NCBI RefSeq assembly: GCF_024714495.1
Contig: NZ_JAMZMJ010000001.1
Span: 1,550,001 to 1,614,000, forward strand
Direction: 5' to 3'
Length of the DNA: 64,000 nt
Source of the DNA: Marinoscillum pacificum
Lineage (GTDB): Bacteria; Bacteroidota; Bacteroidia; Cytophagales; Cyclobacteriaceae
Within the stretch, counting starts at the first letter, position 1; each line of letters begins with the position of its first letter. Below the pieces are notes generated by a model that saw nothing but the letters and a program-made list of their open reading frames with translations, was not told the origin of the DNA and ran no database searches. Below, in pieces: positions 10,964 through 16,979 of the stretch. The position numbers and the translations under genes are program-made.

Positions 10964-11812
10964 TTAGTTCAAAAAAATCTTATTAGAAAAATTGATAGCT
11001 TCTTTAAAAATTAACTCATCAAGCCCAGTGGTTACCTCATTCTCATTCAAAAAATCGATAATGGTCTCGGTCGCCATGTTTCCTGTCAAATCATCCTTTG
11101 CCATAGGACATCCTCCAAAACCACGAACGGCTCCATCTATTCGCCTACAACCTCCATCAAAAGCAGCTTTCACTTTATCTTTTGCCGTTGTTGGAATAGA
11201 ATGCAAATGAGCACCAAACTCGATATGCGGAAATTTAGGAATTAAAGTTCGAAATAACGGAGATATTATTTCTGGAGTTGCAACTCCAATGGTATCTGCA
11301 AGTGAGACCACATCAATCTCCATTTCGTCCAGCCGATCCACAAACTGACCGACATAATCGATTTCGTATGGATCGCCATATGGATTACCAAAGCCCATGG
11401 ACAAATACACCACTAATGTTTTATCATCCGACTGACAGATATCCTGAATTTCTGCCAGATTATCAAACGCCGTGTCAATAGATCGATTGGTATTTCGTTG
11501 CTGAAACGTCTCCGACAATGACAATGGATAGCCCAAATACTGGATTTCCTCAAAATTGGAAGCAATCTCAGCACCTTTTACGTTTGCAACAATGGCCAAC
11601 AGCTTAGACTTAGAACTACCTAATTCCAAACCATCCAACACTTCAGCTGTATCCCGCATTTGAGGAATGGCTTTAGGCGAAACAAAACTTCCAAAATCAA
11701 TGGTATCAAAACCAACTTTCAGAAGTTTGTTGATATACTCAATCTTTAATTCCGTTGGAACAAAGTCATGCAAACCTTGCATGGCATCTCTTGGGCACTC
11801 GATGATCTTCAT
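10964..11812 (-). CDS. Hydroxymethylglutaryl-CoA lyase
   Basis: A 282-residue TIM-barrel enzyme of the HMGL-like family that splits HMG-CoA into acetyl-CoA and acetoacetate, the last step of leucine catabolism. The N-terminus has ECPRDAMQG, the form of the (G)PRDGLQ metal-site motif. The C-terminal active-site loop GFGGCPMAKDD contains the catalytic Cys, and GAHLHS gives the metal-binding histidines. The Cys loop separates it from isopropylmalate and homocitrate synthases. It lies 27 bases after metF and is followed without a gap by the SLC13 gene. Its placement in a methionine unit is unusual. Confidence 0.88.
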   Translation of the reverse strand: MKIIECPRDAMQGLHDFVPTELKIEYINKLLKVGFDTIDFGSFVSPKAIPQMRDTAEVLDGLELGSSKSKLLAIVANVKGAEIASNFEEIQYLGYPLSLSETFQQRNTNRSIDTAFDNLAEIQDICQSDDKTLVVYLSMGFGNPYGDPYEIDYVGQFVDRLDEMEIDVVSLADTIGVATPEIISPLFRTLIPKFPHIEFGAHLHSIPTTAKDKVKAAFDGGCRRIDGAVRGFGGCPMAKDDLTGNMATETIIDFLNENEVTTGLDELIFKEAINFSNKIFLN

Positions 11813-11839: not shown

Positions 11840-12796
11840 TCAGAAAAGCGATTTGGCTATGCGCTCTACCGAATCAGACTTACCCATAGAATAATAATGA
11901 AGCACCGGTACGCCAGCTGCCATTAATTCTTTGGACTGTTTGATTCCCCATTCAATACCTACTTCCTTCACTTGCTTATTGTCTTTACACTTCTCAATCT
12001 CATTGTAAAGCTCATCAGGAATATCAATATGGAAAATACTCGGCAATACGGTCATGTGTCCCTTTGTAGTAATCGGCTTTAACCCTGGTATGATTGGCAC
12101 ATTGATTCCAGCCTCTCTACACTTATCCACAAACTCGAAATACTTCTGATTTTCAAAAAACATTTGAGTCACAATATATTCTGCCCCATTGTCCACTTTC
12201 TCCTTCAGGAACTTTAAATCAGAAGTCATATTAGGCGCTTCAAAGTGCTTCTCTGGATAACCAGCTACACCAATGCAAAAACTGGTAGGCATGGCATTTT
12301 GCAGATCTTCATCCAGGTATTGTCCTTCATTCATTCCTACCACCTGATTTACCAAATCAATGGCATAGGCATTGCCATCTGGCTCTGGTTTGAAAGTCTT
12401 CTCCTCTGCAATGGAATCTCCTCTCAGCACTAACACATTATCAATCCCCAGGAAATTCAAATCGATTAGTGCATTCTCTGTTTCCTCTTTTGTAAAGCCA
12501 CCGCAAATGATATGCGGAACAGGGTCCACGTTGTATCTATTTTTAATAGCAGCACATATTCCTACAGTACCTGGTCTTTTTCTGATCGTTTTCTTCTCCA
12601 ACAATCCATTACCACGGTTTTTGTAGACATATTCTTCTCTGTGATATGTCACATCGATGAATGGTGGATTGAATTCCATCAACGGATCAATGTGATTAAA
12701 AAGAGAATCAATACTATCACCTTTCTTAGGCGGAATGATTTCCAGGGAAAACAGAGTCTTACCCTCAGCTGCTTTTATATGTTCAGTTACCTTCAT
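11840..12796 (-). CDS. metF: 5,10-methylenetetrahydrofolate reductase
   Basis: A 318-residue FAD enzyme that reduces 5,10-methylene-THF to 5-methyl-THF, the methyl donor for MetH. The TIM-barrel shows the N-terminal SLEIIPPKKGDS with the catalytic Glu, the VTYHREE segment, and LVLRGD and TQMFFEN stretches typical of bacterial MetF. Length and start match the family. It lies 46 bases downstream of the large metH half, in the same orientation, so it should share the SAM-riboswitch transcript. Confidence 0.97.
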   Translation of the reverse strand: MKVTEHIKAAEGKTLFSLEIIPPKKGDSIDSLFNHIDPLMEFNPPFIDVTYHREEYVYKNRGNGLLEKKTIRKRPGTVGICAAIKNRYNVDPVPHIICGGFTKEETENALIDLNFLGIDNVLVLRGDSIAEEKTFKPEPDGNAYAIDLVNQVVGMNEGQYLDEDLQNAMPTSFCIGVAGYPEKHFEAPNMTSDLKFLKEKVDNGAEYIVTQMFFENQKYFEFVDKCREAGINVPIIPGLKPITTKGHMTVLPSIFHIDIPDELYNEIEKCKDNKQVKEVGIEWGIKQSKELMAAGVPVLHYYSMGKSDSVERIAKSLF

Positions 12797-12842: not shown

Positions 12843-15515
12843 TTACTTATATCCTAAATTTGGAGCCAACCATCTTTCGATCATTTCTTTGTCCATGCTT
12901 TTACGCTTGGTGTAGTCATCTATTTGATCTTCATACACTTTTCCTAGGCCAAAATACTTTGACTCAGGATGAGAAAAATAGAAGCCACTTACAGATGATG
13001 CAGGATACATTGCCATGCTTTCCGTTAATTCGACACCAATGCTTTTCTCTGCCTCAAGTAATTCAAATAGGATTGGTTTTTCCGTATGATCGGGACAGGC
13101 AGGATAACCAGGAGCTGGTCGAATCCCTTCATATTTTTCTTTGATCAAAGACTCATTATCCAATATTTCCTCAGACGCGTATCCCCAAATCTCCTTTCGC
13201 ACTTTTTCATGCATCATTTCTGCCAATGCTTCCGCAAAACGATCCGCAATAGCTTTTACCAGAATAGAATTGTAGTCGTCATGATCTTCTTCGTAAGCTT
13301 TAGCCAGTTCATGTGCGCCAAAAATAGATACTGCAAAACCACCTAAATGATCTTGTTTTCCTGTTTCTTTTGGTGCAATAAAGTCAGCCAAACTCATATT
13401 TGGAAGATTGCTACCTTTTTTACCTTGCTGACGTAGGAAATGGAACTTTGTACCATTTTCCAGCACCACATCCTCTCCTTCAGCTACTGCAGGCCATAAC
13501 CCAACAACCGCTTTCGCTACCAATTTCTTATCAGCAATAAGCTGATCAATCATCACATTGGCGTCATCGTACAGCTTCTTGGCTTCCTTCCCTACTGTGG
13601 GATTTTCGAAGATGTTAGGAAACTTCCCTTTTAACATCCAGGTGTTGAAGAATGGAGTCCAATCAATGTATTTCCTGATTTCTTCCAGATCAACATCATC
13701 AAAAACCTTAATCCCGACATGATTTGGAGTTGTTGGCTCAAATGCTGACCAATCTATCTTCGTCCTATTATTGCAAGCTGCTTTGAATGAGACATGAGCC
13801 TTTTCAGATCGTCTATTCTCATGATCTTCACGAAGTTGATCGTATTCACCTTTTACATTGGCAACCAGAGCATCTTTCTTGGTTCCTAACAAATCAGAGG
13901 CAACCCCAACACTCTTGGATGCATCCAACACATGAATGGCTGGACCTGAGTATTTCGGAGCTATTTTCACAGCAGTGTGAACCCTACTCGTAGTAGCTCC
14001 ACCAATTAGTAAAGGTGTACTAAGCTTTCTACGCTCCATCTCTTCTGCCACATGAACCATCTCATCTAGAGAAGGCGTGATCAAGCCACTCAAACCGATT
14101 ATATCGGCACCAACCTTAGCCGCTTCATCCAATATCTTCTCAGCAGGCACCATTACCCCTAGGTCAACGATATCATAGTTGTTACAGGCCAAAACAACAC
14201 CCACGATATTCTTTCCAATATCATGCACATCTCCCTTCACAGTAGCTAAGAGTATTTTTCCTTTGGAGCTCATCTCTGCCCCTGAAAGTCTCTTCTCTTC
14301 TTCCAAATAAGGAATTAGATAAGCTACTGACTTCTTCATTACTCGGGCACTCTTTACCACCTGAGGCAGGAACATTTTACCCGCTCCAAACAAGTCACCT
14401 ACCACGTTCATTCCATCCATCAGTGGACCTTCAATCACATGAAGTGGACGATCGTACTTTTGGCGTGCTTCTTCGGTATCTTCTTCTATGTAATCAACAA
14501 TACCTTTTACCAGGGCATGCTTCAAGCGCTCTTCAACAGTGGTTTTACGCCATTCGTTATCTTCTACCTTAACTTTACCAGAACCTTTAACCTTCTCAGC
14601 AAAAGCTAACAATCGCTCAGTAGCATCTGATCGTCTGTTGAGTAATACATCCTCAACATGCTCCAACAAATCCTTAGGAATCTCATCGTATACCTCGATC
14701 ATTCCGGCATTCACAATACCCATATCCATTCCCGACTGAATGCCATGATATAGAAATGCTGAGTGCATCGCTTCACGAACTGCATTATTCCCTCGGAAAG
14801 AAAATGAAACGTTACTTACTCCACCACTTACTTTAGCACCAGGGAGGTTTTCTTTGATCCATTTCGTTGCTTTGAAGAAGTCTACCGCATAATTATCGTG
14901 CTCTGATATACCTGTAGCGACAGGGAAAATATTCGGATCGAAAATGATATCTGCCGGATTGAAACCAACCGTATCCACTAAAAGATCATAGGAACGTTTA
15001 CAGATCTCAATTCTTCGTTCATAGGTATCCGCCTGTCCATTTTCATCGAACGCCATCACCACCACAGCAGCACCATACTGGCGAACCTTATTAGCTTGAT
15101 ACAAGAAAGGTTCTTCACCTTCTTTCAAGGAAATAGAATTGACAACTCCTTTACCTTGAATGCACTGCAATCCTGCTTCAATGATGTCCCATTTTGAAGA
15201 GTCAATCATGATTGGAATGCGAGCAATTTCTGGCTCTGATGCGATCAGGTTGAGGAACTTAACCATGGCAGCTTTGCCATCCAGCATTCCTTCGTCCATG
15301 TTGACATCCAAAATCTGCGCACCACTTCGCACCTGATCCAAAGCAACCTCTAATGCCGTATCGTATTGCTCTTCAAGGATCAATCGCTTGAAACGTGCGG
15401 AACCAGTCACGTTAGTACGCTCACCAACATTGACGAAGTTTGATTCTGCAGTTACAACCAAAGGTTCAAGGCCCGATAATCTCAATATATAGTCAGTATT
15501 CAGTTTTTCGCTCAT
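12843..15515 (-). CDS. metH: Methionine synthase, folate/cobalamin/activation half of split MetH
   Basis: An 890-residue protein with the C-terminal three modules of cobalamin-dependent methionine synthase. The pterin-binding domain starts at once ([12 protein letters not shown]). The B12 cap and Rossmann-like cobalamin domain contain the His ligand motif DVHDIGKN. The last part is the SAM-dependent activation domain, with [12 protein letters not shown]. The homocysteine module is missing here and is encoded separately at 15963-16979. The start is taken at the ATG reading MSEKLN; a TTG seven codons upstream is possible but less likely. It lies 29 bases after the QueF-like gene. Confidence 0.96.
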
Positions 15516-15544
15516 TAAATCGTTCTCTACTTCCAATCACCAGA

Positions 15545-15982
15545 TTACATCAAGACTTGCCAGTTATCGTCTGTACCACCATTAGCCCAGTCCGAGTACT
15601 TTTCTTCTCCTCCTCTTACTTTCCAGTCAGAGTCAATAGTCAATCTTGAACTGATTCCTCCACGAGGGTTACAGTTCATCACAATACGCAAACGATCAGG
15701 TCCATAAACCTCCATCAGGTGATCATAGAAGATATTGATCAATCGCTCATAAGAAACCGTGATGTTTCTCAACTGAAACACATATTGTTTCAAGGATTTC
15801 AATTCGATAATTTTACCTTTTGGATAGAATGTCAAATAAACATTCGCAAAATCAGGCTGCTCCTTTACTCCAAGAAAAGTGAATTCCGGAATCTTGATTT
15901 TGATTTCGTAAGCTTCTTTTGATGGATTAGGTATTGCTTTTAAAATTCCTTTATCGATAGCATCATACAGTTGCGTGGACAT
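15545..15982 (-). CDS. QueF-like T-fold protein lacking the catalytic Cys
   Basis: A 145-residue protein clearly related to QueF (preQ0 reductase, T-fold), but not a normal one. Family motifs are visible: PEFT (32-35), QPDFA (42-46, with the acid Asp44), ELKSLK (60-65), RN (72-73), Glu79 where QueF has its substrate-anchoring Glu, and NPRGGIS (105-111). In QueF the segment after PEFT is SLC, with the Cys that attacks the nitrile; here it is FLG, one residue shorter, so the nucleophile is gone. The His before the anchoring Glu is Tyr. The only Cys is at 104, just before NPRGG. The start is the ATG 20 bases inside the upstream metH half; a start 14 codons earlier is less likely. It lies between two metH halves, so I infer a ligand-binding or new role, not preQ1 synthesis. 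Confidence 0.82.
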
Positions 15983-16979
15983 TGTCGATCTTTCTAGGTT
16001 TATACTTGGCCGCTCGCGCAGCAATTTCTTTTATATGTTCTGGAGTAGTTCCGCAGCACCCTCCCAGGATATTGACATAACTCGACTGAAGGTATTCTTC
16101 TACCTGATCTCCCATTTCTGATGGTGTCTGGTCATATTCTCCAAACTCATTAGGTAAACCAGCATTTGGGTGAGCACTCACCAAGAAATTAGCCTTTTCA
16201 GAAAGCGTCTGAAGATATGGTCTCAACTGACTCGCTCCCAGTGCACAATTCAAGCCAACACTCAACAAAGGCATGTGTGAAATGGAAATCAAGAAAGCTT
16301 CTGTTGTTTGTCCTGACAAAGTTCGTCCTGATGCATCAGTAATCGTTCCAGACACCATAATAGGCACCTTCACCCCTCTATCAGCACACTCTTCATCAAT
16401 AGCCATCAAAGCTGCCTTGGCATTCAACGTATCGAATACGGTCTCTACCAACAAGATGTCAGAACCGCCTTCCAACAATGCTCTGACTTGCAGGCGATAC
16501 GCATCTTTCAGCTGATCGAACGTAACCGCTCTATAACCCGGATCATTCACATCTGGAGACAAAGAAGCAGTTCTATTGGTTGGTCCAATGGAACCCGCCA
16601 CAAAGCGAGGTTTGTTTGGCTCTTTAGCAGTAAACTCATCCGCTACTTCTCTTGCGATTTTAGCAGACTCATAATTGATTTTATAAACCCAATACTCCGT
16701 ATCTAACCCATAATCCGCCTGAGCGATGGTAGTACCGCTGAAGGTATTGGTTTCCACAATATCCGCTCCTGCTTCAAAATACAAAGCATGGATTTCTTTG
16801 ATGATATCTGGTCTGGTAAATGACAATAGATCATTATTTCCCTTCAATGGAGATGGGTGATCTTTCAACTCATCATTTCTAAAGTCTTCTTCTGTGAGTT
16901 TATGGCGTTGGATCATGGTACCCATAGCCCCATCCAAAACCAATACTCGCTCCTCCGCTATTTCTAGTAGCTTGCTCAT
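15963..16979 (-). CDS. metH: Methionine synthase, homocysteine-methyltransferase half of split MetH
   Basis: A 338-residue homocysteine S-methyltransferase module (TIM barrel with zinc). The N-terminus [10 protein letters not shown] is the classic MetH start. Zinc ligands are supplied by the Cys of GLNCALG and the pair in [10 protein letters not shown] near the end. In most bacteria this is the first domain of a protein of about 1200 residues; here it is a free protein followed by the QueF-like gene, then the remaining modules. It is the first gene after the SAM-I riboswitch. Together the two halves carry all four MetH modules. Confidence 0.95.

Follow-up and report, generated by a model that had tools for sequence, protein, structure and literature searches.

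A QueF-family protein without the nucleophilic cysteine, encoded between the two metH halves of Marinoscillum pacificum, is a candidate folate enzyme of the methionine/SAM cycle

Introduction

QueF uses NADPH to reduce a thioimide and then an imine, and its active-site Cys is needed for the first of these steps. T-fold proteins, to which QueF belongs, bind pterins and purines, and an invariant Glu anchors preQ0 in QueF, according to the available sections of PMC5372742, which treat sequences without the active-site Cys as non-QueF. Methylenetetrahydrofolate (methylene-THF) reductases pass through a 5-iminium ion to which a hydride is delivered. Some of them are flavin-free; one of these, Mfr, transfers the hydride directly through the 5-iminium ion with a Glu as the acid (available sections of PMC11094777).

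Here, we describe a small protein of Marinoscillum pacificum, designated Q. Unimodular QueF (TIGR03139 and PF14489; Bacillus subtilis structures PDB 4F8B, 4FGC, and 5UDG) and Q share the T-fold, the equivalents of Asp62 and Glu97, the QueF/NADPH motif with the Glu78 equivalent (E60), and PRGG, and Q is about 30% identical to B. subtilis QueF in structure matches. Unlike QueF, Q has no nucleophilic Cys (Cys55 in B. subtilis), has Tyr in place of His96 and a loop one residue shorter, and carries invariant D117, D119, and W120 beyond the shared core; it also differs in its methionine/SAM gene context and in that 35 of 40 host genomes have no queC over the cut-off. Without the active-site Cys, Q therefore fails the QueF definition given in the available sections of PMC5372742. 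The archaeosine synthase QueF-L (PDB 5JYX and 5K0P) resembles Q as a T-fold relative with a changed reaction, but it keeps the Cys thioimide chemistry (in the part of PMC5485725 at hand), whereas Q is without that Cys. GTP cyclohydrolase I (FolE) also gave T-fold structural matches, at 13–18% identity in the Foldseek rows shown, whereas the family match of Q is to QueF. If the function proposed below is right, mycobacterial Mfr and Q would share direct nicotinamide hydride transfer to methylene-THF, although Mfr has a (beta-alpha)8 barrel fold and is a distant relative of MetF (accessible text of PMC11094777 and PMC7857596) and Q is a T-fold protein. MetF/MTHFR (PF02219) would likewise share the proposed reaction, and it occupies an overlapping genomic neighborhood, but it is a FAD-dependent ping-pong enzyme (accessible text of PMC11094777) and Q has no PF02219 match.

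Our literature search, outside which most subscription papers and preprints lay, found no description of a Cys-less QueF family. DpdL is a possible relative of Q, but the search found no paper on it in this connection. Q is a new subfamily within a known superfamily, with a function that is probably new.

Results and Discussion

The window, that is, the whole analyzed stretch of 64,000 nucleotides, contains the Q gene at positions 15545..15982 on the minus strand, where a genuine ORF (ATG at 15982, stop at 15545) encodes a Cys-less QueF-fold protein of 145 aa that matches PF14489. Its start overlaps by 20 bp the end of metH_A (15963..16979, minus strand; PF02574), which encodes the homocysteine-binding half of MetH, and its end lies 29 bp from the likely ATG (position 15515) of metH_B (12843..15536, minus strand), whose profile matches cover the pterin, B12, and activation domains. 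Farther downstream are an intact metF (11840..12796, minus strand), encoding a canonical flavin-type methylene-THF reductase (TIGR00676, 313.6 bits; cut-off 293.7), and, 3' of it, an HMG-CoA-lyase-like gene (10964..11812, minus strand; 197.3 bits, below the cut-off of 246), which serves as a synteny marker for metF losses among relatives. A SAM riboswitch (RF00162; 17030..17150, minus strand; cut-off 44.4 bits) precedes metH_A, so that the operon order on the minus strand, 5' to 3', is SAM riboswitch, metH_A, Q, metH_B, metF, and HMG-CoA-lyase-like gene. The initial annotation had placed Q sealed between the metH halves under SAM control, and the MetH domain matches and the RF00162 score of 76.2 bits bear this out.

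PF14489 (QueF) was the sole Pfam match of Q at E 0.001 (62.8 bits; cut-off 27.3), with no match to PF02219 (MetF), and the NCBIfam model TIGR03139 scored 84.9 bits against a cut-off of 86.9. Among solved structures, only three QueF sequences matched Q at E 0.001. An AlphaFold model built from a 19-sequence alignment (mean pLDDT 75.5, pTM 0.72) has a predicted secondary structure of beta-beta-alpha-alpha-beta-beta, as expected of a T-fold, and its best Foldseek match was B. subtilis QueF (4fgc/4f8b); QueF-L and GTP cyclohydrolase I were also matched. When aligned to the B. subtilis QueF chains, Q has PEFTSLCPKTGQPDFA, with Gly in the Cys column and a loop one residue shorter. The features read earlier from the sequence mostly held in this alignment: FLG stands in place of the SLC nucleophile motif in a loop that is one residue shorter, QPDFA, ELKSLK, and Glu79 are retained, and Tyr78 replaces the His that precedes the Glu. 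The statement that NPRGG is kept was inexact because the B. subtilis sequence reads TPRGG, so that PRGG is common to both and the first residue differs.

We then considered 86 aligned Q sequences, made up of 39 of the 41 loci L001–L041, 42 viral sequences, and L164–L168 (L035 and L040, which were ambiguous or cut, L076–L093, L169, and later viral loci were left out). The QueF Cys column (G38) was Gly in all 86 sequences. D44 (the Asp62 equivalent), E79 (the Glu97 equivalent), and Y78 were invariant (86/86 each); in the QueF/NADPH motif, E60 and K65 were invariant and K62 and S63 were conserved in at least 95%. The Q motif ELKSLKQY fits seven of the eight positions of the QueF motif as published in the available sections of PMC5372742. 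P32, E33, T35, F36, Q42, P43, L61, R72, S77, and R80 were also invariant, as were P106, R107, G108, G109, D117, D119, and W120. The Cys104 column contained Cys in 69 sequences, Phe in 13, and Ser in 4, and this variability makes a nucleophile moved to Cys104, raised at the outset as a weaker alternative, very unlikely; it was rejected for the family, 17 of whose 86 members have Phe or Ser there. As judged from the alignment, the active-site frame of Q is fixed, whereas the QueF Cys is missing and Cys104 can be dispensed with. Column identity averaged 80% in 19 Q sequences, and in all six pairs compared the nonsynonymous difference (0.09–0.12) was far below the synonymous difference (0.83–0.94). 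These values indicate that Q is under strong purifying selection and that the observation is not due to chance.

By analogy, a QueF-type protein that has no Cys but has the NADPH motif, the Asp, and the Glu would fit the methylene-THF reductase reaction. The 2-amino-4-oxo edge of the pterin may be held by Glu79, just as preQ0 is held by Glu97. Ring opening of the imidazolidine, which yields the 5-iminium ion, may be assisted by Asp44 or a different acid, and NADPH bound at ELKSLK may donate the hydride to this ion. An iminium substrate would need no Cys thioimide, which would explain the loss of the nucleophile. Our leading proposal, which we hold with slightly less than even confidence, is that Q is a flavin-free, NADPH-dependent methylene-THF reductase making 5-methyl-THF for MetH or MetE.

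The sequence also bears on queuosine. With Gly in the Cys column throughout, Q should not be a preQ0 reductase, as had been anticipated. A second, normal queF had been expected in the Marinoscillum genome (completeness 100); none was found, the sole QueF-family match being Q itself, and queC was not over its cut-off either (best 26.7 bits; cut-off 150.3). The queC cut-off was exceeded in 5 of 40 Q genomes, and those same five carry a separate queF match of bimodular length (frames of 277–353 aa). The genes tgt and queA each exceeded their cut-offs in 37 of the 40, so that preQ0/preQ1 salvage is possible; however, a class sample of 149 genomes, which includes 10 Q genomes, had queA matches in 144, and queA is therefore a background trait. 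In Marinoscillum and other Q genomes, neither queC nor a true queF accompanies tgt and the one or two copies of queA, a pattern of preQ1 or queuine salvage. A 7-deazaguanine activity that relies on some other catalytic residue, be it preQ0 reduction or a related reaction, has something in its favor, namely the QueF family match, the possible salvage, and the queD- and queE-like ORFs close to Q in one viral contig, but we consider it highly improbable given the missing Cys, the unconserved Cys104, the rarity of queC and its constant company of a bimodular queF, and the background nature of queA. The co-occurrence pattern of queC, tgt, and queA likewise argues against queuosine synthesis, and a role of Q in queuosine biosynthesis appears unlikely. 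Because 13 of the 40 Q genomes contain a match exceeding the TIGR03139 cut-off, this model accepts part of the Q family, and the organisms would wrongly be credited with queuosine biosynthesis.

A scan of genome contigs yielded 40 loci encoding proteins 68–89% identical to Q. In an even class sample of 395 genomes, 19 had a Q-type protein at 254–292 bits and the other 30 matching genomes reached at most 68 bits; in a phylum sample of 218 genomes, the Q type occurred in the Marinoscillum genome only, and the other 115 matches reached at most 73.5 bits. No intermediates between Q and QueF were found in either sample, and the 15 same-family and same-order genomes in the class sample had no Q or QueF-family match. 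Seven of 245 genomes of Fidelibacterota, the phylum of locus L038, had Q (183–273 bits, E ≤1e−20). Cys was present in 38 of the 40 canonical-type matches that were read, L048 having Gly and L056 being unreadable, and EFTFLG was present in 17 of the 18 class-sample Q-type matches read, L090 having escaped the search pattern. A quick tree, built from 49 Q rows plus 9 others and flagged for long branches, placed the Q type on one side of a branch with an SH-aLRT of 100. A plasmid search matched Q to 37 records, all below 60% identity. L048, also read as L170:7238-7750 (−) in genome G093, encodes a second Cys-less QueF-family protein (EFTTLGPVNRQPDFA) with the canonical loop length; no met neighbors were seen by eye, and the tree sets the protein apart from the Q clade. 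In genome G231 (Anaerophaga), the same Q protein occurs on two contigs (L015 and L017), by duplication or as an assembly repeat.

In the 40 genome-contig loci, which are biased to near relatives, Q is flanked by both metH halves in 24 and by one half in 2. In the even class sample, Q is metH-linked in 3 of 19 cases (Marinoscillum, L076, and L087), and 15 of the 19 Q genes have no adjoining met gene (MetH and MetF by tblastn, the rest by eye). Of the refuting pattern named in the initial annotation, homologues scattered away from met genes with random substitutions, one half is seen: many homologues do lie apart from met genes, but the substitutions in them are not random. A further Q gene of the class sample, in L118 (a larger stretch around L091), lies between a PLP enzyme gene and a homoserine dehydrogenase gene in an operon with a SAM riboswitch; the PLP enzyme belongs to the Cys/Met metabolism family (metB-like) and does not reach the curated cut-off of any NCBI model shown. 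A SAM riboswitch was present in all eight metH-linked Q loci searched, an Rfam match in none of the 12 standalone Q loci searched, and among nine further sources searched against Rfam only L118 gave a match.

In Fidelibacterota, four of the seven Q genes adjoin, in two gene orders, a MeTr-like gene (methyl-THF:corrinoid methyltransferase; PRK07535, 122–141 bits, below the cut-off of 259), and of the other three, one adjoins metE (which exceeds the PRK05222 cut-off), one adjoins msrB (likewise above its cut-off), and one is at a contig end. No riboswitch was found near these Q genes, the cobalamin riboswitch of L158 being located elsewhere. In L014, Q is followed by selU, yedF, a desulfurase gene, and selD, and L017 and L024 are alike by eye; other bacterial Q genes stand alone, by eye. 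On the Q tree, the metH label required two changes and the distinction between met and non-met four, which implies either more than one origin of the linkage or recurrent loss. The earlier idea of a folate/methionine link is strengthened, since Q recurs at metE, at MeTr-like genes, in the metB-like/hom operon, and beside the viral SAM-cycle genes described below.

The link does not extend to the split of MetH, to which the role of Q had been tied. The 149-genome class sample contains MetH both split and whole, and its 10 Q genomes include 5 with unsplit MetH frames (1221–1238 aa), 3 with split MetH (Marinoscillum, G287, and G315), one with a 1006-aa frame (G316), and one with no match (G263). 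Split metH without Q also exists, its slot then being empty or holding other small ORFs, as read in the best 30 of 133 genomes with a MetH match. Q also pairs with the unrelated MetE, and a role as an accessory of the MetH split was rejected. Because MetE is B12-independent, a B12-reactivation role is unlikely as well. A MetH-family match was found at E 1e−10 in 51 of 52 Q genomes, all except G479; those in G253 and G263 are partial and weak, and the best in G244 is partial. In G253, the genome of L038, a lone homocysteine-methyltransferase-like gene (L158:5228-6112) is on a different contig from the MeTr-like gene and Q, and the B12 part of the metH model was not matched at E 1e−10 in this possibly incomplete assembly; methionine synthase appears scattered there.

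The slot between the metH halves held other ORFs in 5 of 29 further metH loci and thus tolerates insertions; by eye, these are S23-like four-helix-bundle ORFs in L122, L123, L126, and L138 and a GxxExxY-like ORF in L144. Such ORFs would suit a non-catalytic Q, either a structural partner or a hitch-hiker in an insertion-prone slot. We regard this as improbable, as the active-site residues are invariant across phyla and viral contigs, purifying selection is strong, and Q recurs with other met genes in other arrangements.

The proposed reductase function was next compared with the occurrence of metF. Twenty metH regions of genomes without Q were hand-picked from the 149-genome class sample, and those regions were counted in which the second MetH half was followed by 2 kb or more of sequence. 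Without Q, metF lay 3' of metH in 9 of 17 regions (8 within 0.4 kb); with Q, it did so in 3 of 25 comparable loci, Marinoscillum and near-identical relatives being counted (Fisher p 0.006, without correction for relatedness). Within Cytophagales, as grouped by record titles, where L041 was placed by the Q tree and the four genomes without Q are those fetched of the 15 same-family or same-order genomes, metF is beside metH in 4 of 4 genomes without Q versus 3 of 13 with Q (p 0.015, relatedness uncorrected). These counts are not phylogenetically independent and rest partly on near-identical relatives. In L005, a metF fossil comprising the last 34 codons remains between metH_B and the lyase gene, and L002 and L003 are without both metF and the lyase gene and retain the downstream transporter gene and dprA as in Marinoscillum. 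Q is thus associated with metF loss beside metH in Cytophagales.

In one Q genome, the MAG G224, no convincing metF was found in 1.995 of about 2.67 Mb (about 75%): the best MetF HMM scores were E 0.12 (12-sequence model) and E 0.037 (3-sequence model), and the best printed tblastn row had E 0.002 with 30.9% identity over 94 columns. As controls of coverage, 11 of 15 widely kept proteins, not all universal, were found, and a window-ORF control was poor (3 of 30 matched). A role of Q as a dihydrofolate reductase substitute was rejected, as DHFR_1 is present in 45 of 52 Q genomes, Marinoscillum included.

The metF losses and the operon context provide indirect support for the methylene-THF reductase reading. 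Against it stands chiefly the intact metF in the same operon in Marinoscillum, L011, and L041, which means that Q is not a strict replacement. The class-sample and viral Q genes that have no met/SAM neighbor, the standalone loci without an Rfam riboswitch, the selU or unrelated neighbors at some Q loci, and the viral locus with queD- and queE-like ORFs also count against it. Coexistence with an intact metF would be natural if Q acted on a reduced folate without being the main reductase, either by recycling or repairing oxidized 5-methyl-THF (e.g., 5-methyl-dihydrofolate) or by handing methyl-THF to methionine synthase; the MetH, MetE, and MeTr-like contexts suit this equally, and the msrB neighbor in L166 adds to it. 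However, metF losses at metH loci that carry Q would not be expected from such a role, our search found no literature on a 5-methyl-dihydrofolate enzyme, and we know of no enzyme family that recycles oxidized 5-methyl-THF. We consider this alternative rather unlikely.

Viral contigs extended the distribution of Q. An IMG/VR scan gave 42 Q loci. A broader alignment gave 157 relatives, and the 80 best of these, a set that overlaps the first 42, were retained. Among 78 viral loci with a clustered Q ORF, metK, ahcY, metE, or metH lay at most three genes away in 19 (a met/SAM neighbor for 15 of 62 distinct viral Q proteins), and none of the four lay within three genes in 59. In chosen examples, NCBIfam cut-offs were exceeded by MetH (L215), AhcY (L215 and L250), and MetE (L278), and MetK was over the cut-off in L250 and under it in L215; the remaining members of the viral met/SAM clusters were assigned by similarity. 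In L215, from a 273-kb contig, the gene order is metK-Q-metH-ahcY. PHROGs matches near Q included DNA polymerase and clamp loader (L278), ribonucleotide reductase (L288), baseplate (L218), topoisomerase (L262), and exonuclease (L292). Three ORFs of L215 tried against PHROGs gave no match, and its viral nature therefore rests on IMG/VR. A query of the INPHARED phages with the Q protein of L192 gave 12 matching records, none of which reached 60% or was of the Q type; their named features were QueF-type or GTP-cyclohydrolase annotations, and the rest were unannotated.

In a reverse scan of viral ahcY loci (best 80 of 244), Q was present in 10 and metK in 9 within the stretch covered, and tblastn with Marinoscillum MetF alone found MetF near none of the 80. 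A 12-sequence MetF HMM had no match in the viral and Fidelibacterota loci scanned. Viral scans with single proteins (phage MetH, phage MetE, and Marinoscillum MetF) returned the queries themselves, one near copy, or nothing, and as they found little beyond themselves, they are no test of MetF carriage by phages.

Several neighbors were noted by eye. In L292:6598-8564 (+), queD- and queE-like ORFs lie just upstream of metK-Q-ahcY, and tblastn with these two ORFs and with the queC/queD/queE-like ORFs of L171 found no other such locus among the 80 viral loci. In cluster c46, a small ferredoxin-like ORF is directly 3' of Q (L217, L219, L221, L222, L228, and L243), that of L221 having no NCBIfam match at a strict 1e−20 limit. 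In L278:6503-7123 (+), a methylthioadenosine/SAH-nucleosidase-like ORF is near metK-Q-metE.

The viral neighbors ahcY and metK, which mostly occur without metH or metE, also suit a Q that acts in the methionine/SAM cycle on a non-folate ligand, as an enzyme or sensor with homocysteine, SAH, or adenosine in the purine pocket. The metB-like/hom operon is consistent with such a role, and T-fold proteins bind purines too (available sections of PMC5372742). However, MetE and the two gene orders with MeTr-like genes point to methyl-THF, and the retained NADPH motif suggests a reductase; we therefore judge a non-folate ligand unlikely. MetH, MetE, and MeTr have in common the methyl-folate side of methionine synthesis.

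Conclusion

Bacteria and phage contigs alike have kept Q, which lost the Cys and is frequently found with methionine/SAM genes, and on these sequence-based grounds it probably acts in the methionine/SAM cycle as a new folate-handling enzyme. In its fullest form, our proposal is that Q is a third kind of methylene-THF reductase, unrelated to MetF and Mfr, with the QueF T-fold, flavin-free and NADPH-dependent; that it arose when the Cys that attacks the nitrile was lost and the half of the QueF reaction that reduces the imine was retained; that it displaced metF in some bacteria; and that it is present on large phages with their own SAM cycle (metK, Q, metH or metE, and ahcY). We advance this whole account tentatively, with a little less confidence than the reductase activity by itself. 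If it is true, a nitrile reductase became a folate enzyme through the loss of its nucleophile, some of the gaps at metF in methionine pathways would have an explanation, and a SAM-regenerating module would be part of the gene content of large phages.
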